DNA of 64,000 nt from Thermasporomyces composti. Lineage in GTDB: Bacteria; Actinomycetota; Actinomycetes; Propionibacteriales; Actinopolymorphaceae. Below, in pieces: positions 17,420-63,993 of this stretch. How positions within the stretch are numbered: the stretch's first letter is position 1; each line of letters opens with the position of its first letter. The DNA lies in assembly GCF_003386795.1 (NCBI RefSeq), contig NZ_QTUC01000001.1, positions 868,001-932,000 of the forward strand, given 5' to 3'. A program made the position numbers and the translations under genes. The notes under the pieces are model-generated. The model did no database searches and had not been told where the DNA came from. It saw nothing but the letters and a program-made list of their open reading frames with translations.

Positions 17420-19794
<2,375 letters not shown>

Positions 19795-19800
19795 TGAACG

Positions 19801-21444
<1,644 letters not shown>

Positions 21445-45573: not shown

Positions 45574-45645
45574 GCCCCCGTAGCTCAGGGGATAGAGCAA
45601 CGGCCTCCGGAGCCGTGTGCGCAGGTTCGAATCCTGCCGGGGGCG
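45574..45645 (+). tRNA. tRNA-Arg (anticodon CCG)
   Basis: A complete cloverleaf: acceptor GCCCCCG with CGGGGGC (7 pairs), D-stem GCTC/GAGC, anticodon stem ACGGC/GCCGT with loop CTCCGGA (anticodon CCG), a 4-base variable loop, T-stem GCAGG/CCTGC with loop TTCGAAT, and discriminator G. CCA is not encoded. It reads CGG, a common Arg codon at this GC content. Confidence 0.96.
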
Positions 45646-46132: not shown

Positions 46133-46160
46133 TTGCAAACCCCGACACAACATGTAGTGT
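46133..46160 (+). promoter_or_regulatory. predicted nrdAB promoter overlapped by NrdR box 2
   Basis: NrdR box 2 is ACACAACATGTAGTGT (46145-46160), a nearly palindromic match to the consensus. A promoter candidate with -35 TTGCAA (46133-46138), 16-base spacer and -10 TAGTGT (46155-46160) overlaps it, so bound NrdR would block RNA polymerase. The start of transcription would fall near 46167, just ahead of the riboswitch. Confidence 0.65.
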
Positions 46161-46164
46161 CTTC

Positions 46165-46360
46165 TCCGCTGGTGGTTCGCCCTGGCCGGTTGGGCTGGGG
46201 CGAGGCAAGAGGGAACCCGGTGAGAGTCCGGGACTGCCCCGCAGCGGTGAGTGGGAACGACCGCCGTCACCGAAGCACTGGACGGGTTCGTCTGGGAAGC
46301 GACGGCCAGTAGGTCCACCGGATCGGTGGGTGCCCGCGAGTCCGAAGACCTGCCATCAGC
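46165..46360 (+). ncRNA. cobalamin riboswitch
   Basis: The conserved core is visible: a G-rich part GGGAACCCGGTGAGAGTCC, then GACTGCCCCGCAGCGGTGA (46210-46249 region), and the B12-box-like GAGTCCGAAGACCTGCCA (46338-46355). It precedes nrdA by about 75 bases, as the leader of a class I ribonucleotide reductase operon known to be B12-repressed in Streptomyces. Adenosylcobalamin binding is expected to lower nrdAB expression. Confidence 0.93.
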
Positions 46361-46414
46361 CCGTGCTCTGTCCCGAGCGCGGAAGTCCGGCGTGTCCGCG
46401 CCGGCACCAGCACG

Positions 46415-48972: not shown

Positions 48973-50055
48973 GTGACCCACACGATCGATCCGGACATCG
49001 TGAACACCACAGGCCTCGGCGAGATCCGACGCGGCGCCGAGCGGGTGAGCGTCGACGACAAGGCCATGATCAACGCTCGCGCCGACGTCAACCAGCTGCT
49101 TCCGTTGAAGTACTCGTGGGCCTGGGAGAAGTACCTGGCGGCATGCGCCAACCATTGGATGCCCACCGAGGTCGCGATGCAGGCCGATATCGCGCTCTGG
49201 AAGTCGCCCGACGGCCTCACCGAGGACGAGCGGCTCATGGTCAAGCGCAACCTCGGATTCTTCGCCACAGCCGAGTCGTTGGTGGCCAACAACCTGGTGC
49301 TGGCGGTCTACCGGCATCTCACCAATCCGGAATGCCGTCAGTACCTCCTCCGACAAGCCTTCGAGGAGGCCGTTCACACCCACACCTTCCAGTACATCTG
49401 TACCAGTCTGGGCCTGGACGAAGGCGAGCTGTTCAACGCCTACCGTGAGGTGCCCTCCATCGCCGACAAGGACGCGTGGGCGCTGCAGTACACCAGGAAC
49501 CTCGAGGACCCGGGCTTTCGCACCAACACGCCGGAGGCCGCCCAGGCCTTCCTGCGGGACCTGATCGCCTTCTACGTGGTGTTCGAAGGCATGTGGTTCT
49601 ACACCGGGTTCGCGCAGATCCTCTCGCTGGGGCGGCGCAACAAGATGGTCGGCATCGCCGAGCAGTACCAGTACATCCTGCGCGACGAGTCGATCCATCT
49701 GAACTTCGGTATCGACTGCATCAACCAGATCAAGCTCGAGAACCCGCACCTGTGGACGCCGGAGTTCGCCGCCGAGGTCCGCGGCATGCTCGTCGAGGCG
49801 TGTGAGCTCGAGGTCGCCTACGCACGCGACACCATGCCTCGCGGCATGCTCGGACTCTCCGCTCAGCTGTGCGAGCAGTACATGCACTTCATCACGGACC
49901 GCCGTGCCCAGCAGATCGGGCTGGACCCCATCTTCGGCGAGACCGAGAACCCGTTCCCGTGGATGGCGGAGGCCATGGACCTCCGGAAGGAGAAGAACTT
50001 CTTCGAGACCCGAGTGACCGAGTACCAGACCGGTGGCTCGCTCGACTGGGACTGA
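48973..50055 (+). CDS. nrdB: class I ribonucleotide reductase beta subunit with subclass Ic residues
   Basis: The 360-residue radical-generating R2 subunit. Likely metal ligands are Glu101 ([10 protein letters not shown]), Glu132 and His135 ([10 protein letters not shown]), Glu205 (VVFEGMWF), Glu239 and His242 ([10 protein letters not shown]). The residue at the radical Tyr position (His+4) is Phe139, and the first ligand is Glu rather than Asp. Both features, and the spacing of all ligands, match chlamydial R2 (subclass Ic), which uses a Mn/Fe cofactor in place of a tyrosyl radical. Tyr141 and Tyr234 also match pathway tyrosines of that enzyme. The C-terminus [14 protein letters not shown] has the Tyr that passes the radical to NrdA. 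It starts at a GTG with GAGGAG 9 bases ahead. Confidence 0.93.
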
Positions 50056-51246: not shown

Positions 51247-54200
51247 CTACCTCACCGCGTAGGCGCGGATGATGGTCTGCTCGACCTTGTTGCCCCTGGT
51301 GTCGCTGGCCTTCGCGCGCAGCGAGACGTAGGACGCGTCGCGGTCCTTGACGACGGCCACCGCCGCAACCCAGCGGTCCTTGCCGACGCGAACCGCCCGC
51401 ACGGGACGCCAGGAGCGGCCGTCGTCGGTCGACACCGACACCGACAGGCGGCGGATCACGCCGACCTTCGCGCCGTCCTGCGCCTGCAGCTTGATCGGCA
51501 CCACCGTGGCTCGCTTGCCGCGGTTGGTCTGGTCGACCTTCGGGTCGAACCGCACCGCCCACAGCGGCAACGGTGTGGGCTCCTCGACGTGCTTCGACCG
51601 GAACGTCCACGTGGTCTCGACCTCGGTCGAGAACAACGAGTACGACGGCCTGGTCGCGCTGACCTTGAGTTGGTACGTCGACTCCTCGACCGGGACCGTG
51701 ACGGTGTCGAGGTACCCGGGGTACTCGGTCTCCGCCACCTTCCTCCCGTCGCGGTACAGCGTCGTCCGCGCGGTATCGGTGAGCGATTCGCCGGCATGCC
51801 CACTCCCGTCGCCATACATCGGGATGCCGACGGAGATGGCGTCACCGTCGCGTTCAACGAAGGAAGCCGACCCCGTCACCGGAGCGAACACCGCGTCGTT
51901 CCACTGCTCGACGTAGCGGTGCCCCTTGCGGTATTGGCGGTCCTCAGACCACAGGGTCGTCTGGGGAACCGGCCAGCCCTCCTCGTCACGGACGAACTCC
52001 TCGACGTCGAAACTCCACGTCACCGACGCGGGCTCGAGATAGCTCGTCACCGTGTGGGGGAGATCCATGACGAGGCCGGGAATGATCCCGCCACTCATCG
52101 ATTCAGCGACACCGAAGGCGAAGCGCATCGCCTGCCGGTCCGGCAGCTGGCGAGCGATGCGGGTGCGCACCGTGGCCAGGTCACGGTCGCGGACCGTCCG
52201 GTCGAAGCCGGTGTAGTACCGACCGTCCTGGGTGTCCACCAGTCCATACAGGTAGGGCGAGTTGGCGAAGTCGCCCTCCGGCCCTGGCACCGCCCACTGG
52301 CTGGTGACGTGGGCGGAGAACATCTCGCCCGACGCCGCAGGTCCCAGGTGAGCGGTGTACAGGCCGTCGAACGTGTCGCTTCCGAGTGTCGAACTCCCCT
52401 GGATGTGGTCGGTGCGCACGTCGTAGCCGACGGTCACCATCGCCGGACGCACCGACGGGCGTTCGACGGTGGTCGACAAGGGCTTGCCGAGCCGAGAGTC
52501 CGCGATGATCGTCTGGTCGCGGTCGAGGGTGAGGACGGGCTGGACGAGCAGGGTCAGCTCCCTCTCGTCCTCGTCGAACACCATGGTGTCGACGAGGTAC
52601 CGACCGGCGGGCAGCCGGATCCGTGTCCTGCCGTCGACGACCTCGGTGAACTCCCACACCGACGCGTCGAGCCCCAGGATCATGCTGTCCGCGTCGTTCG
52701 TCGGCTGACCGCCGCGGTCCAGGTACTCGATGGTGAGGTCGTAGCTCTCGACCTCCTTGTTGACGCCGATCGGTGTGGCGACCGACACCCCCTCGGCGGT
52801 CGCCGTGAGCCGGCCACTGTAGAAGCCGTCCGGACCGTCGTGGGCGGTGTGGGAGGTGATGTCGACCGACGCGGAGCCGCCCGCCGGCACCGTGAGCGAG
52901 GTCTGGCTCAGCTCCACCGCCGACGCCGGCGCGGGCTCGCCGTCCGGCCCGGTGAGGGTCACCGCCAGCTCCAGCGTGACGTCGCTCGACCCGCTGTTGT
53001 GGTAGGTGACCGTCTTCGTCACCGGCTCGTCATCCTCGTGCGGCCACTCGGCCCGGCCGAACGACAGGCTCACCGGATCGGTCGTGACCGTCTGCGTCAA
53101 CGCCCGGGACACGTCGACCCGCCCGGCGCCCTGCTCGAGCACGGTCACGTCCGGGTGCGGGACGGCCGACGCGACGAGGACTCGCTTGAGCTGCTCCCCT
53201 GTCCATTCCGGGTGCTGCTGGGCGAGCAGCGCCGCGGCACCAGCGACGTGGGGCGCGGCCATGGAGGTCCCGTCAGCGGAGACGTAGTGGTCACCCACCG
53301 GTGGCCCCATCTCGGTGCCGGCCGCCCGAGCCGCCACGATCTCCACACCCGGCGCCGTGACGTCCGGCTTGATCGCCCCGTCGCCGACGCGTGGCCCGCG
53401 GCTGGAGAAGAAGGCGAGCTCGTCGGACTTGTCCACCGCACCAACGGTCAACGCCGCGTCCGCGCTTCCCGGCGACTCGACGCTCTCCTCCTCCGGACCG
53501 CTGTTGCCAGCGGAGATGACGAACAGCGCGCCCGTCTCCTCGCTCAGCCGGTTCACCGCCTCCTCGAGCGGGTCCACCTCCGGCGTGTCCGCGCCACCGA
53601 GGCTCAGGTTGAGGATGTCGGCCTGCTGCTCGACCGCCGCCCACTCCATGCCGGCCACGATCGCCGACTCGTCGCAGAAGCCGTCCCGGCCGCACACCTT
53701 CGCGTCCAGCAGGCTGGCCTCGGGCGCCACGCCGGTGTACGTCCCGTCGGATGCCGCACCCGTGCCGGCGATGGTGGAGGCCACGTGCGTGCCGTGCCCG
53801 AAGTCGTCACCGAGGCCTTCGCCGGTGAAGTCCTTCGCCGCCTTGACCTTGCCGTCCAGGTCAGGGTGCGTGGCGTCGATCCCTCCGTCGACCACCGCGA
53901 CGGTCACACCCTCACCTCGGTAGCCGGCGTCCCACGCCGCCGGCGCACCGATCTGCGGCACGCTCTGGTCGAGCGCCAACCGACGCTTCCCATCGAGCCA
54001 GACCTTCTCGATGCCCGCGGCGAACGTGCGAGCGACGCCGTTCCGTTCGACGACGAGGTCGTTCCAGAAACTGGTCGCCGAGTCCTTGGCTACCTCGAGC
54101 GCCGTGGCGTCGATGACCGGGAGCGACCTGAGGTCCGTGCCACCCGCCTCCGCCAGGTGACCGCGTCCGCGTGTCCGGGCGGTGTCGCTTCCGTACGCGA

Positions 54201-54720
54201 CGATGAGCGGGACGGCGCCCTGTCGCCGGTCGTCGTAACCCGCCTCGACCAGGCCGGTCACGTCGAACAGCCGACGGTCGAGCACGCCCTGACGGAGCAG
54301 CGGCAGCGCGTCGAGAGGGATGACGTACAGGTGCCCGTCGACGACGCGGGTGAGGAAGCGGGTGCCATGCCGGCCCGGGCCTGGGACGATCCCCGCTGAG
54401 GTGGCCGTCGCGGACGGCAGCACGACCCGGTCTCCGGTCAGGAGGGTGACCGACACCCGCGCTGGCGCCTGCCGAGACACGCTCTCCGACGTCGGGACGT
54501 CAGGCCCCCGCCCAGCGGAGACCTGTCCCACGGCGGGCGCCACCGGAGTCATGGCGACCGCCAGCCCAGCCAGGCCGGCGACCGCGGTGACGCACACACG
54601 CCGCCACCATCGGACAGCACTCGCCGAACGGCTGGCTACCCCCCGACGCTCAGCAGACGTCGGCCTCCGAACCGCTGGGAACTCGTTTCGACCCCGACCA
54701 CGCCGCGGTGGTGGACGCAT
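51247..54720 (-). CDS. secreted S8 family serine peptidase (subtilase), second copy
   Basis: A 1157-residue extracellular protease, a paralogue of the one at 2802-6296. A long basic N-terminus (37 residues) precedes the hydrophobic signal core (VCVTAVAGLAGLAVAMTPVAPAVG). A pro-region follows (LLTGDRVVLPSA, RQGVLDRRLFDVTGLVEAGYDD, shared with the first copy), then the catalytic domain with Asp near 278 (VVDGGID), His near 309 (GHGTHVAS), Asn in SAGNSG and Ser near 486 ([11 protein letters not shown]). The C-terminal about 600 residues look like beta-rich modules. Two extra Cys flank GRDG (VCGRDGFCD). The substrate is unknown. Confidence 0.93.
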   Translation of the reverse strand: MRPPPRRGRGRNEFPAVRRPTSAERRGVASRSASAVRWWRRVCVTAVAGLAGLAVAMTPVAPAVGQVSAGRGPDVPTSESVSRQAPARVSVTLLTGDRVVLPSATATSAGIVPGPGRHGTRFLTRVVDGHLYVIPLDALPLLRQGVLDRRLFDVTGLVEAGYDDRRQGAVPLIVAYGSDTARTRGRGHLAEAGGTDLRSLPVIDATALEVAKDSATSFWNDLVVERNGVARTFAAGIEKVWLDGKRRLALDQSVPQIGAPAAWDAGYRGEGVTVAVVDGGIDATHPDLDGKVKAAKDFTGEGLGDDFGHGTHVASTIAGTGAASDGTYTGVAPEASLLDAKVCGRDGFCDESAIVAGMEWAAVEQQADILNLSLGGADTPEVDPLEEAVNRLSEETGALFVISAGNSGPEEESVESPGSADAALTVGAVDKSDELAFFSSRGPRVGDGAIKPDVTAPGVEIVAARAAGTEMGPPVGDHYVSADGTSMAAPHVAGAAALLAQQHPEWTGEQLKRVLVASAVPHPDVTVLEQGAGRVDVSRALTQTVTTDPVSLSFGRAEWPHEDDEPVTKTVTYHNSGSSDVTLELAVTLTGPDGEPAPASAVELSQTSLTVPAGGSASVDITSHTAHDGPDGFYSGRLTATAEGVSVATPIGVNKEVESYDLTIEYLDRGGQPTNDADSMILGLDASVWEFTEVVDGRTRIRLPAGRYLVDTMVFDEDERELTLLVQPVLTLDRDQTIIADSRLGKPLSTTVERPSVRPAMVTVGYDVRTDHIQGSSTLGSDTFDGLYTAHLGPAASGEMFSAHVTSQWAVPGPEGDFANSPYLYGLVDTQDGRYYTGFDRTVRDRDLATVRTRIARQLPDRQAMRFAFGVAESMSGGIIPGLVMDLPHTVTSYLEPASVTWSFDVEEFVRDEEGWPVPQTTLWSEDRQYRKGHRYVEQWNDAVFAPVTGSASFVERDGDAISVGIPMYGDGSGHAGESLTDTARTTLYRDGRKVAETEYPGYLDTVTVPVEESTYQLKVSATRPSYSLFSTEVETTWTFRSKHVEEPTPLPLWAVRFDPKVDQTNRGKRATVVPIKLQAQDGAKVGVIRRLSVSVSTDDGRSWRPVRAVRVGKDRWVAAVAVVKDRDASYVSLRAKASDTRGNKVEQTIIRAYAVR

Positions 54721-54915: not shown

Positions 54916-56010
54916 TCAGCTACGCTCCCGGGCACGTCGGCGCACCTGGTCCAGGTAGACCGCGGCGATGAGCACGGCACCAACGGCGACGTTCTGCCAG
55001 TACGGGTTGACGCCGATGGTGACGAATCCGCTCTGCAGGACAGCGGGGATGAGGACGCCGACGACCGTGCCGGCCACCTTGCCGACCCCGCCGAACAGGC
55101 TCGTCCCCCCGAGGACGACGGCCGCGATGGCGGCGAGGTTGTCCGTGCTGTGACCGGAGATGGTCGTGGTACTGAAGTGCGCGAGCGACATCACCCCGGC
55201 GAGACCGGCGAGCGCCCCCATGAGCGCGTAGACCTTGACCAGGTGCCGGTCGACCCGGATCCCGACCCGTCGCGCGGCCTCGGGATTCGACCCGATCGCG
55301 TACGTGTACCGCCCGAATCGAGTGAACGCGAGGACCAGGCCGAGGACGAGGGCGACCACCCCGGCGATCACCACGAGCCACGGCACCACCCCGAAGGCCA
55401 GTCCGAAGCCGAGCGTGCTCACCAGGCGTCGTGGAACACCCCGGACGTCGGTCCCGCCGGTCACCAGGTACGAGGCGCCGAGGGCCATGCCCAGGGTGCC
55501 GAGCGTGGCGATGAGCGGCGGCACCTTGGCCTTGGCGACCAGGAGGCCATTGACCACGCCCCAGAGCAGGCCCGCGGCGAGACCGGCGAGGACGCCGACG
55601 ACGACCACACCCCACCCCGCCTCGGCGGCACCCGCGTCCGGGTTTGTGGGGTCGCTGCCGAGCGCGAGCATCGTCTTGGCAGCGACCACACCGGAGAAGA
55701 TGAGCACCGACCCGACCGAGAGGTCGATCCCCGCGGTCACGATGACGAACGTCATGCCAACGGCGAGGACGAGCAGAGCCGCGTTGTCGGCGGCGATGCT
55801 TCGGATGTTGACCGGGTTGGCGAAGTTCGGCTCGACCGCGGTGAAGAAGACGACCAGCGCGAGGAGCACGGCGAAGATCCATGCGACGTTGCTCGTCACG
55901 AGCCGAGCCGCGAGGTGACGCGACAGCGACCGCCGTGGGGCGTCGGCCGGTGCCGCTTCCGCGTGAGTCGACGCCGCGTGGGTCGACTTCTGGTTCGTGG
56001 TGTCAGTCAT
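54916..56010 (-). CDS. ribose-type ABC transporter permease
   Basis: A 364-residue RbsC/BPD_transp_2 family permease with about 8-10 membrane helices. The typical first helices (WIFAVLLALVVFFTAVEPNF, NIRSIAADNAALLVLAVGMTFVIVTAGIDLSVGS), the FTRFGRYTYAIGSNPEAARRVGI loop that contacts the ATPase, and GGTSLFGGVGKVAGTVVGVLI are all present. ATG 56010 overlaps the ATPase stop by 4 bases (ATGA) and has GGAGGG ahead. It is the last gene of the minus-strand operon. It imports an unknown sugar-like substrate. Confidence 0.93.
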   Translation of the reverse strand: MTDTTNQKSTHAASTHAEAAPADAPRRSLSRHLAARLVTSNVAWIFAVLLALVVFFTAVEPNFANPVNIRSIAADNAALLVLAVGMTFVIVTAGIDLSVGSVLIFSGVVAAKTMLALGSDPTNPDAGAAEAGWGVVVVGVLAGLAAGLLWGVVNGLLVAKAKVPPLIATLGTLGMALGASYLVTGGTDVRGVPRRLVSTLGFGLAFGVVPWLVVIAGVVALVLGLVLAFTRFGRYTYAIGSNPEAARRVGIRVDRHLVKVYALMGALAGLAGVMSLAHFSTTTISGHSTDNLAAIAAVVLGGTSLFGGVGKVAGTVVGVLIPAVLQSGFVTIGVNPYWQNVAVGAVLIAAVYLDQVRRRARERS

Positions 56011-56828
56011 GCCAGCCCTCCGGGCTCGCTCTCTTCTGACCGCCCGTCCGCTGACTCCCCCTCGACCGGAGGGCGCTCGGTTCGCAGGGCGCCCGTCATG
56101 GCGGCGACCAGGTCGTCGAGGGACGCCTCCCGCGCGGTGAACCGCGCGACCCGCTGACCGAGCCGGAGCACCTCCACTCGGTCGGCGACCGCGAGGACCT
56201 CGGGCATGTTGTGGCTGATCAGCACCACCGCGACGCCGCGGTCGCGTACCCGGCGGATCACGTCGAGGACCCGCTCGCGCTGGACGACGCCGAGCGCCGC
56301 CGTCGGCTCGTCCATGAAGACGACCTTCGACGCCCACGCCACCGCCCGGGCCACCGCGATGCTCTGCCGCTGCCCGCCCGAGAGGGAGGCGACGGGGGCG
56401 CTCGGGTCCGGCAGCTCGATGCCGAGGTCGCCGAACGCCTTGGTCGCCCGGCGTCGCATGTATCGCCGGTCGAGCACACCCAGACGGCCCAGCAGGCCGG
56501 GGCGCACGGGCTCACGACCGAGGAACAGGTTGGCGGCCGGGTCGAGGTCCGCGGCAAGGGCGAGGTCCTGGTAGACGACCTCGATGCCGAGGCGGCGCGC
56601 CTCCGCGGGGCTGTCGAGGCTCACCACCCGGCCGTCGAAGCGGATCACCCCCGCGTCGGGCCGCTCCGTCCCCGACAGGCACTTCACCAACGTGCTCTTG
56701 CCGGCTCCGTTGTCGCCGACCAGAGCAACGACCTCCCCTGGGTAGACGCTGAAGTCGGCGCCGCGCAGCGCCTGGACGTGGCCGTACGTCTTCACCAAGC
56801 CGATGGCCTGCAGCCGAGGCGTCGCCAT
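56007..56828 (-). CDS. ribose-type ABC transporter ATP-binding protein, single domain
   Basis: A 273-residue ATPase: Walker A GDNGAGKSTLVKCLSG, signature SLSGGQRQSIAVARAVA, Walker B KVVFMDEPTAALG and the switch His in VVLISHNMPEV. Unlike RbsA it has one nucleotide-binding domain (FrcA-like), so it should act as a homodimer. Its ATG is one base after the stop of the enoyl-CoA hydratase gene, which implies coupled translation of transport and metabolic genes. Confidence 0.93.
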   Translation of the reverse strand: MATPRLQAIGLVKTYGHVQALRGADFSVYPGEVVALVGDNGAGKSTLVKCLSGTERPDAGVIRFDGRVVSLDSPAEARRLGIEVVYQDLALAADLDPAANLFLGREPVRPGLLGRLGVLDRRYMRRRATKAFGDLGIELPDPSAPVASLSGGQRQSIAVARAVAWASKVVFMDEPTAALGVVQRERVLDVIRRVRDRGVAVVLISHNMPEVLAVADRVEVLRLGQRVARFTAREASLDDLVAAMTGALRTERPPVEGESADGRSEESEPGGLA

Positions 56829-56829
56829 C

Positions 56830-57618
56830 TCAGCGTCCCACGAACACCGGCTCGCGCTTCTCGATGAACGCGCGGATTCCCTCGCGAGCGTCCTCGCTCG
56901 CGTAGAGCGCGGACAGCACTCGTTGCTCCAGCGTCCACGCGGCGCCCAGTGGAGCCTCCACCCCATCGTCGACGAGTCGCTTCGCTTCTCGCACCGCGAG
57001 TGGCGCCCGTTCGGCGAGAGCGTGGGCGAGCTCCAACGCGGCGGGCAAGAGCTGGTCCGGGTCGACGACGCGGCTCACCAGTCCGCGCCGCTCGGCCTCG
57101 TCCGGGCGCATGGCGCGCCCGGTCATGACCAGCTCCTTCGTTGCCCGCACGCCGATCGCCCGGGCGAGTCGTTGGGTGCCCCCGCCGCCGGGGAGCAAGC
57201 CTAGCTTGACTTCCGGCAACGCGAACCGCGCCGCGGTCGAGGCCACGATGAGGTCGCACGCCAGCGCGACCTCGAAGCCGCCACCGAACGCGTAGCCGTT
57301 GACGGCCGCGATCGTCGGCTGCGGCAAAGCGGCGAGCTTGCCGAATGCCGCCCGACCCAGCCGCTGGTAGGCGTCGAAAGCCGCGTGGGAGACTCCGTCG
57401 TACTCGGAGATGTCGGCGCCGGCGATGAACCCGCGCCCAGTGCCGGTGACCACGAGGACCCGCACGTCGTCGTCGTGAGCCAGCTCGTCGAGATAGGTGA
57501 CGAGCGTCTCGAGCATGCTTCTGGACAACGCGCCGAGCTTGTCCTCGCGCCGTACACGCAGGACGGCGACAGCACCGTCCCTCTCCTCTGCGAGGTGCTC
57601 GTGCAGGTCTCGCGTCAC
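56830..57618 (-). CDS. enoyl-CoA hydratase/isomerase family protein
   Basis: A 262-residue crotonase-fold enzyme. The oxyanion segment is FIAGADISEYD, and both catalytic glutamates of hydratases are present: GGGFEVALACDLIVAS and PEVKLGLLPGGGGTQRLAR. So a hydratase reaction on a CoA ester is likely. GTG 57618 overlaps the stop of the CoA-transferase gene (GTGA), and its own stop adjoins the ABC ATPase start. It acts with the CoA-transferase in the same operon (inference). Confidence 0.9.
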   Translation of the reverse strand: MTRDLHEHLAEERDGAVAVLRVRREDKLGALSRSMLETLVTYLDELAHDDDVRVLVVTGTGRGFIAGADISEYDGVSHAAFDAYQRLGRAAFGKLAALPQPTIAAVNGYAFGGGFEVALACDLIVASTAARFALPEVKLGLLPGGGGTQRLARAIGVRATKELVMTGRAMRPDEAERRGLVSRVVDPDQLLPAALELAHALAERAPLAVREAKRLVDDGVEAPLGAAWTLEQRVLSALYASEDAREGIRAFIEKREPVFVGR

Positions 57619-58883
57619 GACTGCCCCCTTCCTCTCGCACCCGTTCCTCTCGCGCCCTGCTCGTCACGCCTCGCGCCTTCCCCGGCCCTTCCCCGTGCGG
57701 CCCCTGGCGCACTGGCCGCCTTTCCCAGCACCTTGGCGAGCCGGTCAGGGTCGAGCACCTCGGCCAGCACCTCCTCGGTGTGCTCGCCGACCAGCGGTGG
57801 CGGCTGACGCACGGTCCACGGCGTCTCCGTGAAGGTGATCGGGCATCCGACCAGCTCGAGTGTCCCGGCGCGCGGATGCTCGACCCGGCACAGCAGAGGC
57901 GACTCCTCCGCGCGCAGCTCGTCGACCGCATCCCGCAACGAGCGAACCTCCGCCGCCCAGAGCCCAGCTGGCAGCAGCAGGTCGAGCCAGTCCTTCGTCG
58001 TGCGCCGCGGTGTGATCCGCTCCAGTCGCTCCTTGATCTCGTCCCGGTCGATCCAAGGGTCCAGCTTCGACAGCGACGGCTCGTCGAAGACGCGGGCCAC
58101 GTCCGTCACGTCCGCCATGGCGAGCGCGAGCCACCCGTCCGCAGTGGGATAGATGCCGCACGGGGCTGACAGCCAGGGTGAGGCGATCCCGGCGCGGGAG
58201 CGTTCGAAGGTCTTGTGCTGGTTGACCATCGCCGAGATCTCCTGGCACTGCACCGCGATCGCGGTGGAGTACAGGTCGACCTGGACCCACTGGCCGATCC
58301 CTCGGCGTTCCCGCGCCAGGAGTGCCGCGAGGATCGCGACCGCGAGGGTGAGCGAGGTGCTGGCGTCGACGATCGAGGTGCCGGCGAACGTGGGTGGACC
58401 ATCAGCGCGACCAGTGTTGGCGGCGAGCCCGGACATCGCCTGGATCAGCAGGTCCTGACCCGGTCGGTTCTCCTTGGCGAACGTGCCTTCTTGGCCCCAT
58501 CCCGAGCCCGAGCAGTAGACGATGCGCGGGTTGACGGCACGGAAGTCCTCGTACCCCAGGCCCAGTCGGTCCATGACCCCGGGTCGGAAGTTCTCCACCA
58601 CGACGTCACAGGTGCGGCCCAGCTCGAGCAACGCGTCGCGGGCGTCCGGGTCTTTGAGGTTGAGCGCCACAGACCTCTTGTTACGGTTCATGGCGAGGAA
58701 CGCCGCGCTGTCGCCCGCGACCAGCTCGCCCATCATGGCCAGGCCGCGTTCCCACTCGCCGGTCTCCGGCCGCTCGACCTTGATGACGTCGGCGCCCATG
58801 TCGCCGAGCATCTGGGTGGCGAACGGACCGAGCATCATCTGGGTGAAGTCGAGGACCCTGATGCCGTCGAGAGCGCCGGGCAT
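57615..58883 (-). CDS. CaiB/BaiF family (family III) CoA-transferase
   Basis: A 422-residue enzyme that moves CoA between carboxylic acids. The N-terminal signature reads GIRVLDFTQMMLGPFATQML and GADVIKVERPETGE, the catalytic Asp lies in NRPGQDLLIQAMSGLAA, and RNKRSVALNLKDPDARDAL and CDVVVENFRPGVMDRLGLGYE are typical. The last about 30 residues are Ala/Arg/Gly-rich low complexity and may be non-essential. ATG 58883 has AAAGGA 8 bases ahead and follows a repetitive leader. The substrate acid is unknown. Confidence 0.92.
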   Translation of the reverse strand: MPGALDGIRVLDFTQMMLGPFATQMLGDMGADVIKVERPETGEWERGLAMMGELVAGDSAAFLAMNRNKRSVALNLKDPDARDALLELGRTCDVVVENFRPGVMDRLGLGYEDFRAVNPRIVYCSGSGWGQEGTFAKENRPGQDLLIQAMSGLAANTGRADGPPTFAGTSIVDASTSLTLAVAILAALLARERRGIGQWVQVDLYSTAIAVQCQEISAMVNQHKTFERSRAGIASPWLSAPCGIYPTADGWLALAMADVTDVARVFDEPSLSKLDPWIDRDEIKERLERITPRRTTKDWLDLLLPAGLWAAEVRSLRDAVDELRAEESPLLCRVEHPRAGTLELVGCPITFTETPWTVRQPPPLVGEHTEEVLAEVLDPDRLAKVLGKAASAPGAARGRAGEGARRDEQGARGTGARGRGQS

Positions 58884-58894
58884 CGTCGTCGTCC

Positions 58895-59040
58895 TTTCTC
58901 GGTGTTCGGTTCCCGGTGTTCGGTTGTGGTTCTTGGTTCTCGGTGCTCCGTTTCCTGTGTTCCGTTTCTCTGTGCCGTTTCTGTGTGCCGTTCCTGTGTG
59001 CCTTTTCTTGGGGGCTCCGTTCTCGGTGTCCGGTTCTTGG
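58895..59040 (-). repeat. degenerate 12-15-base tandem repeats in the leader of the CoA-transferase gene
   Basis: The plus strand repeats a unit like CGGTGTTCGGTTCC / CTGTGCCGTTTCTG about ten times with variation, leaving T and G rich on plus and A and C rich on the minus-strand mRNA. It fills the 190-base gap between the two genes, the only long gap in the operon. It would give an unstructured A-rich mRNA leader. Its base composition is unlike its neighbours. Confidence 0.75.
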
Positions 59041-59072
59041 GCTCACCGGTCGTCGCTGGTGCCGGGACGGCT

Positions 59073-60320
59073 TCAGCGGCCGTCCCTAGCCCTCCGGTGG
59101 TCGTCGAGGAGTCGGTCGAGAACGCGGACGATCTCGGCGGGTGCCGAGCCGGCCGAGAGCTCCTCGGCGAGGAGTCCGCTCGCCTCCTCCTGAAACGCCC
59201 GCCACCAGGGAGTGCGGGGACGGGTCCAGACGGCGTCCATCGTGGCCCTGGTATCGCGAAAGAACCCGCCCACCAGGGCGTCGGCCTCCGGATCCGACCA
59301 GGTGGCCGCGCTCGCCGGCTGTCCCTCGTTGGGGAGGACGACGTACCGCTGGGCGGTCGTCCCACTCACCCAGCTGGCGAACGCCGCCGCCTCGACGCGG
59401 TGGGCGCTCGTGGCCGAGACGCCGATACCAGCCCCGCCAAGGGTTGACCCGCGTGGGCCGGTGGCCTCGCCCGTGCCGACGGCGGACGCGTCGGCGCCGC
59501 GCGCGCCCGTCGTGGTGAGATGCCGCGCGCAGCCGCCGGGGGAAGACGCGGTGGGGATGCCCGTGGTAGGGATGTTGGTGAAGCGCACCGGGCGGCCGCT
59601 CGTGGACGGCCGCGAGTAGTTCGTGTAGCCGAACAGCAGCGGGACGTAGACGATCGCGTCGTCGCTCGTCATCCGGTCGAGCAGGGCTGGCGGATTCAAG
59701 CTGAACGACGAGCGGTCGACCACCTGCGCGAGCGTGGCGAGCAGTGCCACCGCGTCGCGATGGAAGCCGGACGCCTCGGCGTCCAGTGGGGTCCCGAGGC
59801 TGGCCGAGATGGTGAGCAGGCTGCAGAACGCGTCAGCCGGGTACAGCGGCAGGACCACCTTGCCCGGCAAGGCGCGCGCCAAGGCCACCACGTCGTCCCA
59901 CGTGGCCGGGACCTCGACCTCGTGGGCCGCCAGGAGATCGGGGCGGAACGCGGCGACCTGGCAGGCCGCGTCAACGGCGAGTCCCCACTGGTGACCCGCG
60001 TACTGGTAGCTGGCGTGGCTCCCACCGACCGTGTCCGCCGCATGGGCGTCGAGGACCTCGTCCGGCAGGAGGTCGTCCAGCGGAGCCAGGCATCCGGCGC
60101 GCGCGGCTGCCCCGACCATGGGGTGGTCGAAGACGATGAGGTCGTAGTCCGCGGCGAGCTCCTCGACCGCTTGGTCGTTGAACGCTGACAAGGGCCGGGC
60201 GTCCCACGCCACCTCGACACCGCGGACCGACCGCCACACAGCGGCCGCGGCAGCCATGGGTTTGACACAGCGGGCGTGGTCCCAGCAGATGCCGCGCAGA
60301 CGCACACGCTGATCAGGCAC
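59073..60320 (-). CDS. solute-binding-protein-like protein without export signal
   Basis: A 415-residue protein with features of family 1 extracellular solute-binding proteins (VRLRGICWDHARCVKPMAAA, DYDLIVFDHPMVGAAARAG, GHQWGLAVDAACQVAAFRPDLL, VPATWDDVVALARAL, ALPGKVVLPLYP). It has no signal peptide or lipobox, so it should stay in the cytoplasm. It lies inside a transport and CoA operon whose real lipoprotein binding protein is the next gene upstream (8-base overlap at 60313-60320). I recall similar signal-less proteins next to CaiB-type genes in other bacteria. The function is unknown: perhaps a cytosolic sensor or enzyme. Confidence 0.7.
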   Translation of the reverse strand: MPDQRVRLRGICWDHARCVKPMAAAAAVWRSVRGVEVAWDARPLSAFNDQAVEELAADYDLIVFDHPMVGAAARAGCLAPLDDLLPDEVLDAHAADTVGGSHASYQYAGHQWGLAVDAACQVAAFRPDLLAAHEVEVPATWDDVVALARALPGKVVLPLYPADAFCSLLTISASLGTPLDAEASGFHRDAVALLATLAQVVDRSSFSLNPPALLDRMTSDDAIVYVPLLFGYTNYSRPSTSGRPVRFTNIPTTGIPTASSPGGCARHLTTTGARGADASAVGTGEATGPRGSTLGGAGIGVSATSAHRVEAAAFASWVSGTTAQRYVVLPNEGQPASAATWSDPEADALVGGFFRDTRATMDAVWTRPRTPWWRAFQEEASGLLAEELSAGSAPAEIVRVLDRLLDDHRRARDGR

Positions 60321-61299
60321 CAGTGCACGACTCCCGGTAGAGGTACTTCTGGGTCTCCGGATCGTCGAGGTTGTCCTTCGTCGCCACGAACGACCCGGTG
60401 CGGATGAGCTTGGTGACCGGCTTGCCGGAGAGGGCGTTGACCGCTTGCTCCACGCCCTCGGCGCCGATGTCGAGCGGCTTCAGGACGACCTGGCCTTGCG
60501 CGGATCCGTCGCGCAGCGCCTGCACACCGCTGGGGTTGGCGTCGAAGCCGATGAGCTTGATCTCCCCGGATTTGTGGGCGTTCCGGATACCCGTCGCCGC
60601 GCCCTGCCCCGTCAAGGTGTTGGTGGCGAACACAGCAGCCAGGTTGGGATGGGCGGCCAGGGTCGATGTCACGACTGAGCTGGCCTTGGCCGCGTCGTCC
60701 CCGGCGAAGCGCTCGCCGACGTACTCGATGCCGGGCTCCTGGGCGAGGCGCTTCTCGAATCCGCGGACCCGAGCCGCCACCGTGGACACTCCTGGCTGGG
60801 TGTTGATCGTGACGACGGCGCCCGTGCCGCCGGTGAGTCTGATGACCTCCTCCGCCGCCTTCTCCCCGGCCAGTTCGTCATCCGAGGTCACCTGGGAGAC
60901 GGCGAAGGAGGGGTTCTTGACGGTGGTGTCGACCAAGACCACCGTGATGCCGTGCGCGGCCGCCTGCTCCAACGGCGCCTGCAAGGCGGTGTCGTCGACG
61001 GGTGCGATGAGGATCGCGTCCGGACGCGCGGCGATGACCGAGTTGAGGATCGGGATCTGCTCCGCCGCGTCCCACTTGTTGGGCCCCTGGACGTCGAGCT
61101 CGACCCCGAGCTTCTTCGCGGCCTGGCGGGCGCCGCAGGCCAACGATCCGTAGAAGTCGTCACCCTTCAAGCCGACGATCAGGCTGATCCGATAGCCGTC
61201 GCCGCCGGACCCTGTGTCCTCCGCACCGCAACCCGCCGCACTCGCCACGACGAGGCCCACGGAAAGGAATGCCAGGAAAGCTCTGCGCAGCGGATGCAA
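60313..61299 (-). CDS. ribose-type ABC transporter substrate-binding lipoprotein
   Basis: A 328-residue periplasmic-binding-type lipoprotein (Peripla_BP_4). The signal peptide is RRAFLAFLSVGLVVASAAGC, with lipobox ASAAGC and Cys near residue 24. The mature part reads YRISLIVGLKGDDFYGSLAC, NSVIAARPDAILIAPVDDTAL, NTLTGQGAATGIRNAHKSG and KLIGFDANPSGVQALRDG, typical of RbsB-like proteins. I chose TTG 61299 because GGAGG stands 5 bases ahead; ATG 61326, overlapping the SDR stop by ATGA, is the alternative. It captures the imported substrate and overlaps the signal-less homologue downstream. Confidence 0.9.
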   Translation of the reverse strand: MHPLRRAFLAFLSVGLVVASAAGCGAEDTGSGGDGYRISLIVGLKGDDFYGSLACGARQAAKKLGVELDVQGPNKWDAAEQIPILNSVIAARPDAILIAPVDDTALQAPLEQAAAHGITVVLVDTTVKNPSFAVSQVTSDDELAGEKAAEEVIRLTGGTGAVVTINTQPGVSTVAARVRGFEKRLAQEPGIEYVGERFAGDDAAKASSVVTSTLAAHPNLAAVFATNTLTGQGAATGIRNAHKSGEIKLIGFDANPSGVQALRDGSAQGQVVLKPLDIGAEGVEQAVNALSGKPVTKLIRTGSFVATKDNLDDPETQKYLYRESCTGA

Positions 61300-61322
61300 T
61301 TGCTCCTCCCTCCCCGCGGGTG

Positions 61323-62108
61323 TCATCGCGCGGCGGCGCGCGATCCGAGGACCGTGAGGCCACCATCGACGGGCACACACGCACCGGTGATGAAGGACGA
61401 GTCCTCCGACGCAAGGAAAGCCACGACGGCGGCCACTTCCTCGCACTGTCCGAAGCGTCCGAGGGCGTGCATGGCGTTCCAGCTCTCGATGAGAGCCGCC
61501 GGATCCGGAGCGGTGCGGAAGATCTCCTCGTTCATCGGGCTCATGATCGTCCCGGGCGCGATCGCGTTGACCCGGATGCGATCCGGTGCGTACTCGACCG
61601 CGGCTTGCTGAGTGAGGGAGATGATCGCGCCCTTCGTGGCCGCGTACGCCGCCCAACCGGGGAAGCCGCGAAGCGCCTGCGCGCTCGATGCGTTCACGAT
61701 CGACCCACCACCCGAGGCGCGCAGGTGCGGGATCGCGTACTTCATCGCGTACCAGATGCCTTTGAGATTGACGGCGAAGACCCGGTCCCAGTCCTCCTCC
61801 GGCATATCGGTGACGGATCCGCCGACGGCGATGCCGGCGATGTTGACGAGGACGTCGAGCCGCCCGTACCGGTCGGTGACCGCGCGCACCAGCGCAGCGA
61901 CGTCGTCCACGCGGCTCACGTCGGTCGGGACCGCCATCGCCTCACCGCCGTTGTCGATGATCTCGTGGAGCACCTTCTCCAGGCCGGTCACGTCGACGTC
62001 GGCGAGACCGACCGTGGCCCCTTCGGCGGCGAGGCGAAGAGCGCAGGCGCGACCGATGCCCTTGGCCGCACCCGTCACGATGCCGATCTTGCCGTCGAAC
62101 CTGCGCAT
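61323..62108 (-). CDS. SDR family dehydrogenase
   Basis: A 261-residue classical short-chain dehydrogenase/reductase. It has the nucleotide motif GAAKGIGRACALRLAAEGA, Asp40-like ADVDVTG (favouring NAD), the NIAG motif, the catalytic Ser (VNASSAQ) and Tyr-x3-Lys (YAATKGA), and a C-terminal GACVPVDGG. ATG 62108 has GGGAG 7 bases ahead. It is the first gene of the LacI-controlled operon and likely oxidises the imported polyol or sugar-like substrate (inference). Confidence 0.93.
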   Translation of the reverse strand: MRRFDGKIGIVTGAAKGIGRACALRLAAEGATVGLADVDVTGLEKVLHEIIDNGGEAMAVPTDVSRVDDVAALVRAVTDRYGRLDVLVNIAGIAVGGSVTDMPEEDWDRVFAVNLKGIWYAMKYAIPHLRASGGGSIVNASSAQALRGFPGWAAYAATKGAIISLTQQAAVEYAPDRIRVNAIAPGTIMSPMNEEIFRTAPDPAALIESWNAMHALGRFGQCEEVAAVVAFLASEDSSFITGACVPVDGGLTVLGSRAAAR

Positions 62109-62179
62109 GGACGGCTCCCTTCGTGACGTCGCCGGGCCGAGACGTGGAACACGCGGGTCCAGCGCCGTCGGGCTGAGGA

Positions 62180-62189
62180 AAAACGTTTT
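62180..62189. promoter_or_regulatory. LacI-family operator-like palindrome
   Basis: AAAACGTTTT is a perfect CG-centred palindrome in the 215-base divergent region between the SDR gene and lacI. LacI/PurR-type regulators favour such sites. It is also unusually AT-rich for this window. Confidence 0.55.
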
Positions 62190-62323
62190 ACTGCGACCGG
62201 TCCTCATTCTCGGCGCGTCGGGCTGCCAAAGTGTCCCGGACGGCGCGAACGTGGCCGCACCCGGTCGTCCGCCGAGCCGACCGGGTACTCGTTCCGCCGT
62301 CCGGACCGCTCGAAGGGAGGTCG

Positions 62324-63385
62324 ATGGCCACCATCACCGACGTGGCACGCCGTGCCGGGGTCTCACCCTCCGTCGTCTCGCGTCTGCTCAACAACGACCC
62401 GACGCTGCGGATTCGAGACGACACTCGTGCTCGTGTGCTCCGAGTGGTCGAAGAGCTCGACTACGCGCCACACCACGCCGCCCGGGCTCTGCGCCGCTCG
62501 CAGGTCGGCGCCCTCGGCCTCGCGGTGCCTGACATGCACAACCCCGTCTACGCGGCCATCCTGGAAGGCGCGCGACCGGCGGCGACCGAGCACGGGTACT
62601 TGCTCATGCTGACCAGCCTCGACGATCTGGCGTCCAACACCACCATGTCCCGTCGGATCGTCCGCGGCGGGGCGATCGACGGGCTCCTCGTGCAGCGAGA
62701 CAGCCCGACTGCAGCGCGAGTCGTCGATCGCATCACCGCCCGCCGCATGCCGGTCGTCGTGCTGAACGAGCGGGTACGCGCACCCATCGCGGGCGTTGCG
62801 GTGGACGACCGTGCCGCGGCGAGACTGGCCACGAGACACCTGCTCGAGTTGGGGCACACCGAGATCGCCCACCTGCGCGTCCGTGGCAACAACTCGCGCT
62901 CGCGGGACCGAGAGGCCGGGTGGCGAGACGCGCTGAAGGAAGCGGGCCTGACGCCTCGCGCTGAGCTGGTGGCCAACGGTGGCGCCGTTCCAGAGAGCGG
63001 CTTTCACGGCCTCCTCGAGCTGCTCCGACGACCACGCCCTCCGACCGCCGTCTTCGTGGGGAGTGTTCTCGCCGCCGTCGGCGCCCTCACCGCCGCTCGC
63101 CACGCGGGCCTCACCGTGCCCGACGACCTGTCGATCATCGGCTATCACGACACCTGGCTGGCCGAGCACGTCGACCCGCCCCTCACCGTCGTCCGCTTGC
63201 CGCTCGTCGACATGGGACGGGAAGCCGTCCGGCTCCTCGTCGACCTGATCAACGGCAGGCCCGCCCAGCAAGTGCTCCTCGACACTCCTACGCCCGAGCT
63301 GGTCGTCCGCGCGTCCACCGCGCCACCACGCAGAGCCAGGCGGGCGGGCGCGCGCCCGCGGCACAGGGAAAGGAAGCGCCCATGA
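62324..63385 (+). CDS. LacI family transcriptional regulator
   Basis: A 353-residue regulator. The N-terminal helix-turn-helix and hinge are clear: MATITDVARRAGVSPSVVSR, then YAPHHAARALRRSQVGALGL. The ligand domain (VGALGLAVPDMHNPVYAAIL, GLLVQRD, VAVDDRAAARLATRHLLELGH, IIGYHDTWLAEHVDPPLT) is a periplasmic-binding fold. ATG 62324 has GGGAGG ahead. It is divergent from the catabolic operon and overlaps the LysE-type gene by 4 bases (ATGA). It probably represses both until the substrate binds. Confidence 0.94.
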   Translation: MATITDVARRAGVSPSVVSRLLNNDPTLRIRDDTRARVLRVVEELDYAPHHAARALRRSQVGALGLAVPDMHNPVYAAILEGARPAATEHGYLLMLTSLDDLASNTTMSRRIVRGGAIDGLLVQRDSPTAARVVDRITARRMPVVVLNERVRAPIAGVAVDDRAAARLATRHLLELGHTEIAHLRVRGNNSRSRDREAGWRDALKEAGLTPRAELVANGGAVPESGFHGLLELLRRPRPPTAVFVGSVLAAVGALTAARHAGLTVPDDLSIIGYHDTWLAEHVDPPLTVVRLPLVDMGREAVRLLVDLINGRPAQQVLLDTPTPELVVRASTAPPRRARRAGARPRHRERKRP

Positions 63386-63993
63386 CTGTTGAGTTCCTGC
63401 TGACCTCGCTCATCGTTGTCGCCAGTCCTGGCGCCGGTGTGCTGTACACGGTGGCGACCGGCCTCGCCCGAGGCGCACGCGCCAGCCTCGTCGCCGCCGT
63501 CGGCTGCACGCTCGGCATCGTCCCGCACATGGCGGCGGCCGTGACCGGTCTCGCCGCGCTTCTCCATACGAGCGCCCTGGCGTTCCAGACCCTCAAGTAC
63601 CTCGGCGTCGCCTACTTGCTCGTCATGGCGTGGCGCACTCTCAAGGACACCGGCGTGCTAACGGTCGAGGCGGACACGAGACCGCGAACGGCCATCCAAC
63701 TGATCGTCTCCGCCATCCTGATCAACATCCTCAACCCGAAACTCACGATCTTCTTCTTCGCGTTCCTGCCGCAGTTCGTGCCCACCGGTGAACCCGACGC
63801 GCTCGTCCGCATGGTCGAGCTCAGCGCCGTCTTCATGCTGCTCACGCTGATCGTGTTCACTTGCTACGGGTGGTTCGCCGGCAGCATCCGCTCCCACGTC
63901 ATCTCCCGACCCGGTGCGCTGCGCTGGATGCGCCGCAGTTTCGCGGCGGCGTTCGCCGCTCTGGGAGCCCGCCTGGCGTTCACGGACCGGTAA
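63382..63993 (+). CDS. LysE family translocator
   Basis: A 203-residue membrane protein with about six helices: EFLLTSLIVVASPGAGVLYT (N-terminal signature with PGA), the GARASLVAAVGCTLGIVPHM segment and NILNPKLTIFFFAFLPQFV, the NPK motif of the LysE/RhtB group. Such proteins export amino acids or related metabolites. Its start overlaps the lacI stop by ATGA, so it is under the same control. Complete; ends 7 bases before the window edge. Confidence 0.92.
   Translation: MTVEFLLTSLIVVASPGAGVLYTVATGLARGARASLVAAVGCTLGIVPHMAAAVTGLAALLHTSALAFQTLKYLGVAYLLVMAWRTLKDTGVLTVEADTRPRTAIQLIVSAILINILNPKLTIFFFAFLPQFVPTGEPDALVRMVELSAVFMLLTLIVFTCYGWFAGSIRSHVISRPGALRWMRRSFAAAFAALGARLAFTDR

Follow-up and report, generated by a model that had tools for sequence, protein, structure and literature searches.

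A conserved set of genes for a cytosolic solute-binding-protein homologue, a CoA-transferase and an enoyl-CoA hydratase in a sugar-import operon of Thermasporomyces composti, and its possible role in the processing of sugar acids as CoA thioesters

In the carnitine cycle an L-carnitine coenzyme A (CoA)-transferase and a carnitinyl-CoA dehydratase act on a beta-hydroxy acid while the CoA is recycled, and in the non-phosphorylative sugar pathways a dehydrogenase, a lactonase and an aldonate dehydratase are followed by an FAH-family hydrolase or dehydratase. Here we describe an operon of the actinobacterium Thermasporomyces composti that resembles both systems in part. It lies in a stretch of 64,000 nucleotides (positions 868001-932000 of the 4.37-Mb genome, which consists of one contig), referred to here as the window, and its seven minus-strand genes encode, in this order, a short-chain dehydrogenase/reductase (SDR), an RbsB-type sugar-binding lipoprotein, a solute-binding-protein (SBP) homologue named SBP1, a family III CoA-transferase (CaiB), an enoyl-CoA hydratase (ECH), an ATP-binding cassette (ABC) ATPase and an RbsC-type permease. 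On the basis of sequence comparison and of analogy to known systems it seems possible, at slightly less than an even chance, that SBP1, CaiB and ECH form a cytosolic module which processes an aldonate as a CoA thioester in this sugar-import operon, and comparison of related loci gives good support to the view that this module is conserved as a unit and belongs to the catabolism of sugar acids.

The likeness to the carnitine CaiB/CaiD system consists in the pairing of a family III CoA-transferase with a crotonase-type dehydratase. However, the window CaiB scored 105.9 against a cut-off of 413 for L-carnitine CoA-transferase and the window ECH 163.5 against a cut-off of 500 for crotonobetainyl-CoA hydratase, and because these equivalog scores are far below the cut-offs, carnitine metabolism was rejected as the role of the operon. 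The window module further differs from the carnitine system by its sugar-gene neighbours and its additional cytosolic SBP. Compared with the non-phosphorylative pathways, genes for SDRs, for lactonases of the SMP-30 and amidohydrolase types, for FAH-family enzymes and for aldehyde dehydrogenases recur around the trio of SBP1, CaiB and hydratase, and the FAH-family proteins of two loci scored 401 (L101) and 211 (L058) for 2,4-didehydro-3-deoxy-L-rhamnonate hydrolase (cut-off 500), but the trio loci are often devoid of known dehydratase families and contain the CoA enzymes instead. With RbsABC-type CUT2 importers the window shares an RbsB-like lipoprotein, an RbsC-like permease and one half of an RbsA-like ATPase, although its ATPase has a single nucleotide-binding domain where the RbsA type has two, and no part of the window importer reaches the cut-off of the NCBIfam equivalogs compared. 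SBP1 itself shares the predicted fold of CUT1 sugar-binding proteins such as trehalose/maltose-binding protein, LpqY and SmoF, from which it differs by being encoded with CoA enzymes and by the apparent lack of an export signal (in 82 of 82 relatives), while the importer of the window is of the CUT2 type with its own receptor, unlike the type of SBP1.

A profile search of named genomes for SBP1 gave 296 candidate stretches, 262 of which encode a relative, and the 80 best-scoring loci, which span ten named phyla, one of them archaeal, and include one locus without a phylum name, were used for comparison. Locus counts were obtained from tblastn and hidden Markov model searches; several contigs are short, so that absences in loci are lower bounds, and loci of one genus count repeatedly in the Fisher and Mantel tests. 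CaiB was present in 64 of the 80 loci and a CoA hydratase in 62 of these 64, the two exceptions being L055 and L066, whereas only one of the 16 loci without CaiB encodes a hydratase (L102, an ECH; Fisher p 3e-13, with rows that are not independent). CaiB was found in 51, ECH in 46 and SDR in 53 of the 80 loci at a distance of up to 6 kb from SBP1, and among the 52 loci that extend no less than 5 kb before and 6 kb after SBP1, 46 contained CaiB and 44 both CaiB and a hydratase. The hydratase of the CaiB loci belongs to the crotonase (ECH) type in 56 cases and to the MaoC type, which was sought with four seed proteins, in six (L065, L067, L068, L072, L076 and L131; confirmed by Pfam in five of the six), and the two types occurred together in none of the 80 loci, even at E 0.01. 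Since CaiB is accompanied either by a crotonase or by a MaoC protein of another fold, and never by both, the hydration or dehydration of a CoA ester would be the step shared by these loci. Class I CoA-transferase genes (PF01144) are located close to the CaiB clusters of L066 and L080.

The phylogeny of CaiB gave a corresponding picture. The 64 linked rows, from the window and 63 loci, formed one clade (100/99) apart from 24 other CaiBs, which came from ten genomes plus that of the window and were taken from 30 loci of a longer match list; seven rows more than 98% identical to linked ones had been dropped, and two of the outsider rows fill less than half of the columns. Within the clade the six MaoC-linked CaiBs constitute one subclade (100/100), and from the presence of MaoC in place of crotonase it looks as if the hydratase fold was exchanged once. 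Pairwise distances were most strongly correlated between CaiB and ECH (r 0.94, 56 rows), followed by SBP1 and ECH (0.80, 55 rows), SBP1 and CaiB (0.76, 60 rows), SBP1 and SDR (0.67, 62 rows) and CaiB and SDR (0.54, 50 rows), and none of 999 permutations reached any observed r. A chance neighbourhood of SBP1, CaiB and hydratase was rejected because of the locus counts and the single CaiB clade. Residues 5-369 of the window CaiB match the CoA_transf_3 profile over its full length (1-366), and Asp173 aligns with the Asp of solved enzymes, which has a catalytic role in family III CoA-transferases, and is conserved in 64 of 64 rows. Likewise, Glu116 and Glu136 of ECH, aligned to 2pbp, are glutamates in all 58 rows including the window, and both residues carry the hydratase chemistry. 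PMC9007349 describes the first glutamate as catalytic in the rat hydratase. The CaiB of the window also bears an extra low-complexity tail.

SBP1, a protein of 415 amino acids, matches the SBP_bac_8 family, and no NCBIfam model matched it at E 0.001. Its AlphaFold2 model (pLDDT 91.1) aligned with trehalose/maltose-binding protein 1eu8 at a VIA-align Z of 37.4 (rmsd 2.7, 369 residues) and reached Z values of 36.7 to 7ape and 36.8 to 7yzu, CUT1 proteins that include LpqY and SmoF, and a profile search agrees with a CUT1-type SBP fold. Residues 256-284 form a low-confidence insert of about 30 residues that is missing in Actinopolymorpha alba. A comparison of N-termini drew on 82 SBP1 proteins from 79 of the 80 loci. 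Each was taken to begin at the start codon closest to the conserved WDH motif (within 25 codons), a choice that by itself gives short N-termini, and an export signal was looked for as a hydrophobic stretch read from starts farther upstream. No hydrophobic N-terminal stretch was detected in any of the 82 relatives, also when any in-frame start up to 60 codons upstream was allowed, and in 18 proteins the 15 codons before the assumed start include a stop; by the same measure, 21 of 22 RbsB- or CUT1-type receptors from the same neighbourhoods were positive within their first 60 residues. By these signs SBP1 appears to be a sugar-binding fold that stays inside the cell, and 21 of its positions, including W13, H15, R17, D60, D65, H66, D117, Q324, Q334 and R367, are invariant in 75 aligned rows. 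The initial annotation had listed a signal-less binding-protein homologue among the operon's genes; the absence of a signal was borne out, and the comparison suggests that SBP1 marks a separate cytosolic family tied to CoA genes and is not a stray part of the importer. A function of SBP1 as the receptor of the importer was rejected in view of the missing export signal and the presence of a separate RbsB. Three loci (L061, L062 and L064) contain a tandem SBP1 pair behind CaiB and ECH with a TRAP-transporter-like gene nearby (by reading), a homologue occurs without CaiB in the locus in an archaeal metagenome-assembled genome (MAG; L069, Nitrososphaerota), and in L093, L096, L111 and L123 SBP1 is found without CaiB beside oligopeptide-type ABC importer genes (by reading) and enolase-superfamily genes.

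The neighbourhood of the trio is rich in genes of sugar catabolism. At least one carbohydrate marker, permeases counted, was present in 57 of the 64 CaiB loci, with DUF4432 in 22, CUT2 permeases in 20, Gfo/Idh/MocA proteins in 19, a second SDR type in 19, a 390-amino-acid FAH-family protein in 16, CUT1 permeases in 14, aldehyde dehydrogenase in 12, xylose-isomerase-like TIM barrels in 10, SMP-30 and amidohydrolase types in eight each and smaller FAH proteins in six; family names were derived from representatives, and some labels are profiles built on clusters of which one or few members were family-checked. In the three loci closest to the window CaiB group (L058, L074 and L078), a metallo-beta-lactamase-fold hydrolase is encoded together with CaiB, ECH, SDR and an FAH-family enzyme. 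This hydrolase cluster (k48) had been considered a zinc alcohol dehydrogenase, which was rejected because Pfam assigned the metallo-beta-lactamase fold in all three loci, and it is possibly a lactonase or thioesterase; the 'ADHZn' category in the counts mixes k48 with a further cluster, k65. In two other loci (L122 and L127) a single run contains a CUT1 importer, ECH, SDR, an unassigned gene, an ATPase, an SMP-30 lactonase, SBP1 and CaiB. These neighbours fit a sequence from sugar to lactone to aldonate, an unassigned step, and FAH-type cleavage or dehydration. In 16 of the 21 CaiB loci with an FAH-family enzyme no enolase-type, IlvD, UxuA or UxaA dehydratase was found in the locus, which makes CaiB and its hydratase candidates for the step before FAH. 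Lactonases, FAH-family enzymes and DUF4432 suggest that the substrate class is that of aldoses and aldonates. The initial annotation had proposed the import of a polyol- or hydroxy-acid-like substrate that is oxidised, loaded onto CoA and dehydrated; this order of events fits the sugar-acid genes that surround CaiB and hydratase across phyla, but a polyol substrate is not favoured.

The direct coupling of the importer to the CoA genes, also proposed in the initial annotation, recurs beyond T. composti. All seven genes and lacI were found in three more actinobacterial genomes, those of Actinopolymorpha alba (L045/L052), which belongs to the same family as T. composti, of a MAG of the Thermomonosporaceae (L053) and of Rugosimonospora africana (L054). 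In A. alba lacI adjoins the seven genes, whose order is unchanged; SBP1 is 61% identical to that of the window and the other six are about 74-85% identical, while L053 and L054 contain all eight genes as two divergent units, SDR-SBP1-ECH and lacI-RbsB-CaiB-ATPase-permease. A perfect palindrome, AAAACGTTTT, is located between SDR and lacI at 62180..62189 and is a probable LacI operator; it has no second copy in the genome of T. composti, and AAACGATTT occurs at the matching place in L052, L053, L054 and a Wenjunlia locus (L056). AAACGWTTT was found at four further places in the genome, all close to a gene start predicted by rough gene calls and one of them beside a beta-galactosidase-like open reading frame (ORF, by reading), but since AAACGWTTT is typical of LacI operators, no regulon was drawn from these places. 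Given that the whole genome contains only two CoA_transf_3 and eight ECH_1 genes and that the gene set recurs elsewhere, the location of CoA genes beside the importer appears to be more than chance, and these comparisons support the importer and the CoA genes as one conserved, LacI-linked unit. A partial set is kept in Wenjunlia, where SDR, SBP1, ECH, lacI and CaiB are retained with CUT1 transporter genes and DUF4432 between lacI and CaiB, and where no RbsB, ATPase or permease of the window kind was found in the next 13 kb beyond CaiB. The question whether relatives keep only one half of the set, posed with the initial annotation, was thus answered in favour of one unit of which the importer is, judged from the gene neighbourhoods, the exchangeable part, as the transporter genes next to the CoA trio in relatives are of the CUT1, CUT2 or other types. 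The divergent lacI-lysE pair had likewise been assigned to the shared control region; lacI is conserved with the set, but lysE was matched in none of the 80 loci, even with E relaxed to 0.01, and is outside the conserved set. Within the phylum, SBP1 matched at E <1e-30 in three of 396 genomes, including its own, and the remaining 31 matches were weak and partial, which speaks against a wide spread in Actinomycetota. Similarly, among 57 relatives including T. composti itself a close RbsB (80%) was found in A. alba only. A secreted F5/8-domain protein inside the L054 cluster matched carbohydrate-binding domains only and hence does not reveal the substrate.

In the route that we propose, RbsB, ATPase and permease would import a sugar, SDR would oxidise it to the aldonolactone or aldonate, and CaiB would move CoA onto the aldonate to give an aldonyl-CoA, from which ECH would remove the C2 hydrogen and the C3 hydroxyl by syn elimination, yielding the enol of a 2-keto-3-deoxy-acyl-CoA that then tautomerises. 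CaiB would pass the CoA to the next aldonate, so that CoA would be catalytic as in the carnitine CaiB/CaiD cycle, and the freed 2-keto-3-deoxy acid would enter FAH-type or aldolase steps encoded elsewhere in the genome, in which the best of the FAH-family candidates is 47% identical to that of L058. SBP1 probably binds a sugar acid or lactone in the cell as a substrate carrier, a sensor or a repurposed enzyme. The individual reactions, the class of substrate and what SBP1 does are all inferred, and the exact chemistry is somewhat short of evenly probable; the gene content, the conservation of the unit, the signal-less SBP1, the invariant catalytic residues and the linkage to sugar genes come from the comparison itself. 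Several points weigh against the proposed route. The compared rows are not phylogenetically independent and represent the best-scoring 80 of 262 loci, a 2-keto acyl-CoA is an unusual intermediate, and no description of the SBP1-CaiB-hydratase trio was found in the open-access literature searched by chosen terms. A classical dehydratase stands alongside CaiB in five of the 21 FAH loci, all five UxuA loci also contain CaiB, and aldonate dehydratase families were not rarer with CaiB (21 of 64 loci) than without it (seven of 16; p 0.56), so that the counts gave no significant sign of a general replacement of classical dehydratases; for the enolase type alone the numbers were 14 of 64 and seven of 16 (p 0.11). 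Genes for a lactonase, an FAH-family enzyme or an aldolase are missing from the window operon itself, and the genome contains two IlvD-family genes elsewhere. Finally, SBP1 occurs without CaiB in 16 of the 80 loci, some of them on short contigs, and as seven of these 16 are beside enolase-type dehydratases, SBP1 may have a use of its own.

The coexistence of CaiB with classical dehydratases in 21 of 64 loci would be explained if CaiB and hydratase carried out a different step. The same module could hydrate an unsaturated sugar acid, for instance one released by polysaccharide lyases, or remove and re-add water so as to epimerise a hydroxyl, while CaiB would activate the sugar acid and release it again. 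Hydratases run in both directions, and beta-helix, GH28-like, GH38 or similar proteins are encoded near several loci; the dehydratase step would then be left without a gene in 16 of the 21 FAH loci, however, and we regard this chemistry as rather unlikely. An SBP1 that is itself an enzyme, such as a lactonase, epimerase or dehydratase on a binding-protein fold with CaiB and ECH acting downstream, would account for its 21 invariant positions and its occurrence without CaiB beside enolase-type dehydratases. The model, in contrast, shows an intact CUT1 sugar-binding fold, several loci contain a separate lactonase-type gene, and the probability of such an enzyme appears low.

Scarcely more probable is a sequence similar to beta-oxidation, in which a deoxy or branched hydroxy acid would be activated and dehydrated or hydrated, after which the SDR would oxidise C3 of its CoA ester ahead of cleavage. 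CaiB, ECH and SDR could represent its middle steps, and the class I CoA-transferase genes of L066 and L080 would be in line with it, but no thiolase or acyl-CoA dehydrogenase was found among the part of the neighbours scanned with Pfam, the sugar lactonase and DUF4432 neighbours fit aldoses better, and the distance correlation of CaiB with SDR is below that with ECH, so that the intermediate on which the SDR acts may be another one. An accidental operon, in which an ordinary ribose-type importer and an SDR came to lie beside unrelated CoA genes, would agree with the exchange of importers between loci, with the 33 of 64 CaiB loci that have neither a CUT1 nor a CUT2 permease, and with the rarity of the cluster in near relatives (an RbsB orthologue of >45% identity in one of 56 other genomes). 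This explanation is very improbable in view of the eight genes kept in three more genomes with one operator motif, in two of them rearranged into divergent units, and of the persistence of CaiB, hydratase and SBP1 together across phyla. The processing of an aldonate as a CoA thioester remains the reading that we prefer.

The layout of the operon corresponds to the initial annotation, whose seven tightly packed minus-strand genes and divergent lacI-lysE pair were all found in place by Pfam and ORF checks, with starts and stops of the seven genes verified. Apart from SBP1 and CaiB, all neighbouring genes share 4-8 bp or are separated by a single base pair. The contacts already noted are an 8-bp overlap of RbsB and SBP1 (60313-60320), a 4-bp overlap of CaiB and ECH (57615-57618), a gap of 1 bp between ECH and ATPase (56828 to 56830) and a 4-bp overlap of ATPase and permease (56007-56010); a further 4-bp overlap, of SDR and RbsB (61323-61326), was added. 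The SDR (61323..62108, minus strand as for all seven genes; adh_short_C2 in Pfam, start at 62108 inside the longest ORF) is a probable sugar (C1) dehydrogenase that exceeds the cut-off of NCBIfam PRK07231 'glucose 1-dehydrogenase' (243.5 vs 215 bits), a subfamily name that is generic. It is followed by RbsB, the predicted receptor of the importer (60313..61326; Peripla_BP_4, 190 bits), whose N-terminus has a hydrophobic stretch (2.67) and, by eye, a lipobox-like AAGC, by SBP1 (59073..60320), CaiB (57615..58883; CoA_transf_3, 359.5 bits) and ECH (56830..57618; ECH_1, 210 bits), and by the ATPase (56007..56828, 273 amino acids; ABC_tran) and permease (54916..56010; BPD_transp_2, 127.8 bits). A signal-bearing Peripla_BP_4 receptor, a BPD_transp_2 permease and an RbsA-like ATPase together in the operon identify the importer as CUT2 type, although the two fused nucleotide-binding domains of that type were not found in the window ATPase, which the RbsA and YtfR profiles matched at the N-terminal half only. 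On the plus strand, the LacI-family regulator (62324..63385; LacI and Peripla_BP_3; longest ORF from 62231, likely ATG at 62324) is followed by the LysE-type exporter (63382..63993; LysE, 118.9 bits).

The spacer between SBP1 and CaiB (58884..59072, minus strand) measures 189 bp, compared with a gap of 1 bp in A. alba, and contains a 13-bp repeat array with an almost T-free coding strand. There are two T in 190 coding-strand bases, no other 180-base stretch on either strand of the window has five T or fewer, and the spacer sequence is single-copy in the genome; its RNA showed no special fold (z -0.08). An Rfam scan of the whole window gave no match inside the operon, no promoter-like site was found, and terminator-like sites numbered three against 2.0 expected. 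Downstream of the operon on the same strand, 51247-54720 encodes a large secreted subtilisin-like (S8) protease as read from the ORF, and just beyond the window two proteins adjoin the cluster (L049:12101-14275 and 17727-19868; genome 932101-939868), one of them probably secreted (by eye) and matched by CBM96 only weakly, under the cut-off, the other a member of glycoside hydrolase family 2. Farther away are a cobalamin riboswitch (46156-46371), about 2.6 kb before an ORF that by eye resembles the ribonucleotide-reductase beta subunit (48973-50055), and a tRNA-Arg at 45574.

The families of the individual parts are known, and within the literature search their combination, with an SBP kept in the cell together with CoA enzymes, is new. 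Somewhat more tentatively than for the operon itself, the compared loci may represent a widespread new route for the dehydration of sugar acids in the form of CoA thioesters by a pair of CoA-transferase and hydratase (of crotonase or MaoC fold), with catalytic CoA and an SBP that has moved into the cytosol as substrate carrier or enzyme. If so, bacteria of nine phyla (62 loci with CaiB and hydratase) would use CoA activation for sugar acids where textbook pathways dehydrate the free sugar acid. Gaps in the pathways of many sugar clusters would thereby be accounted for, an entire CaiB clade would gain a function, and an intracellular solute-binding protein would have a use.

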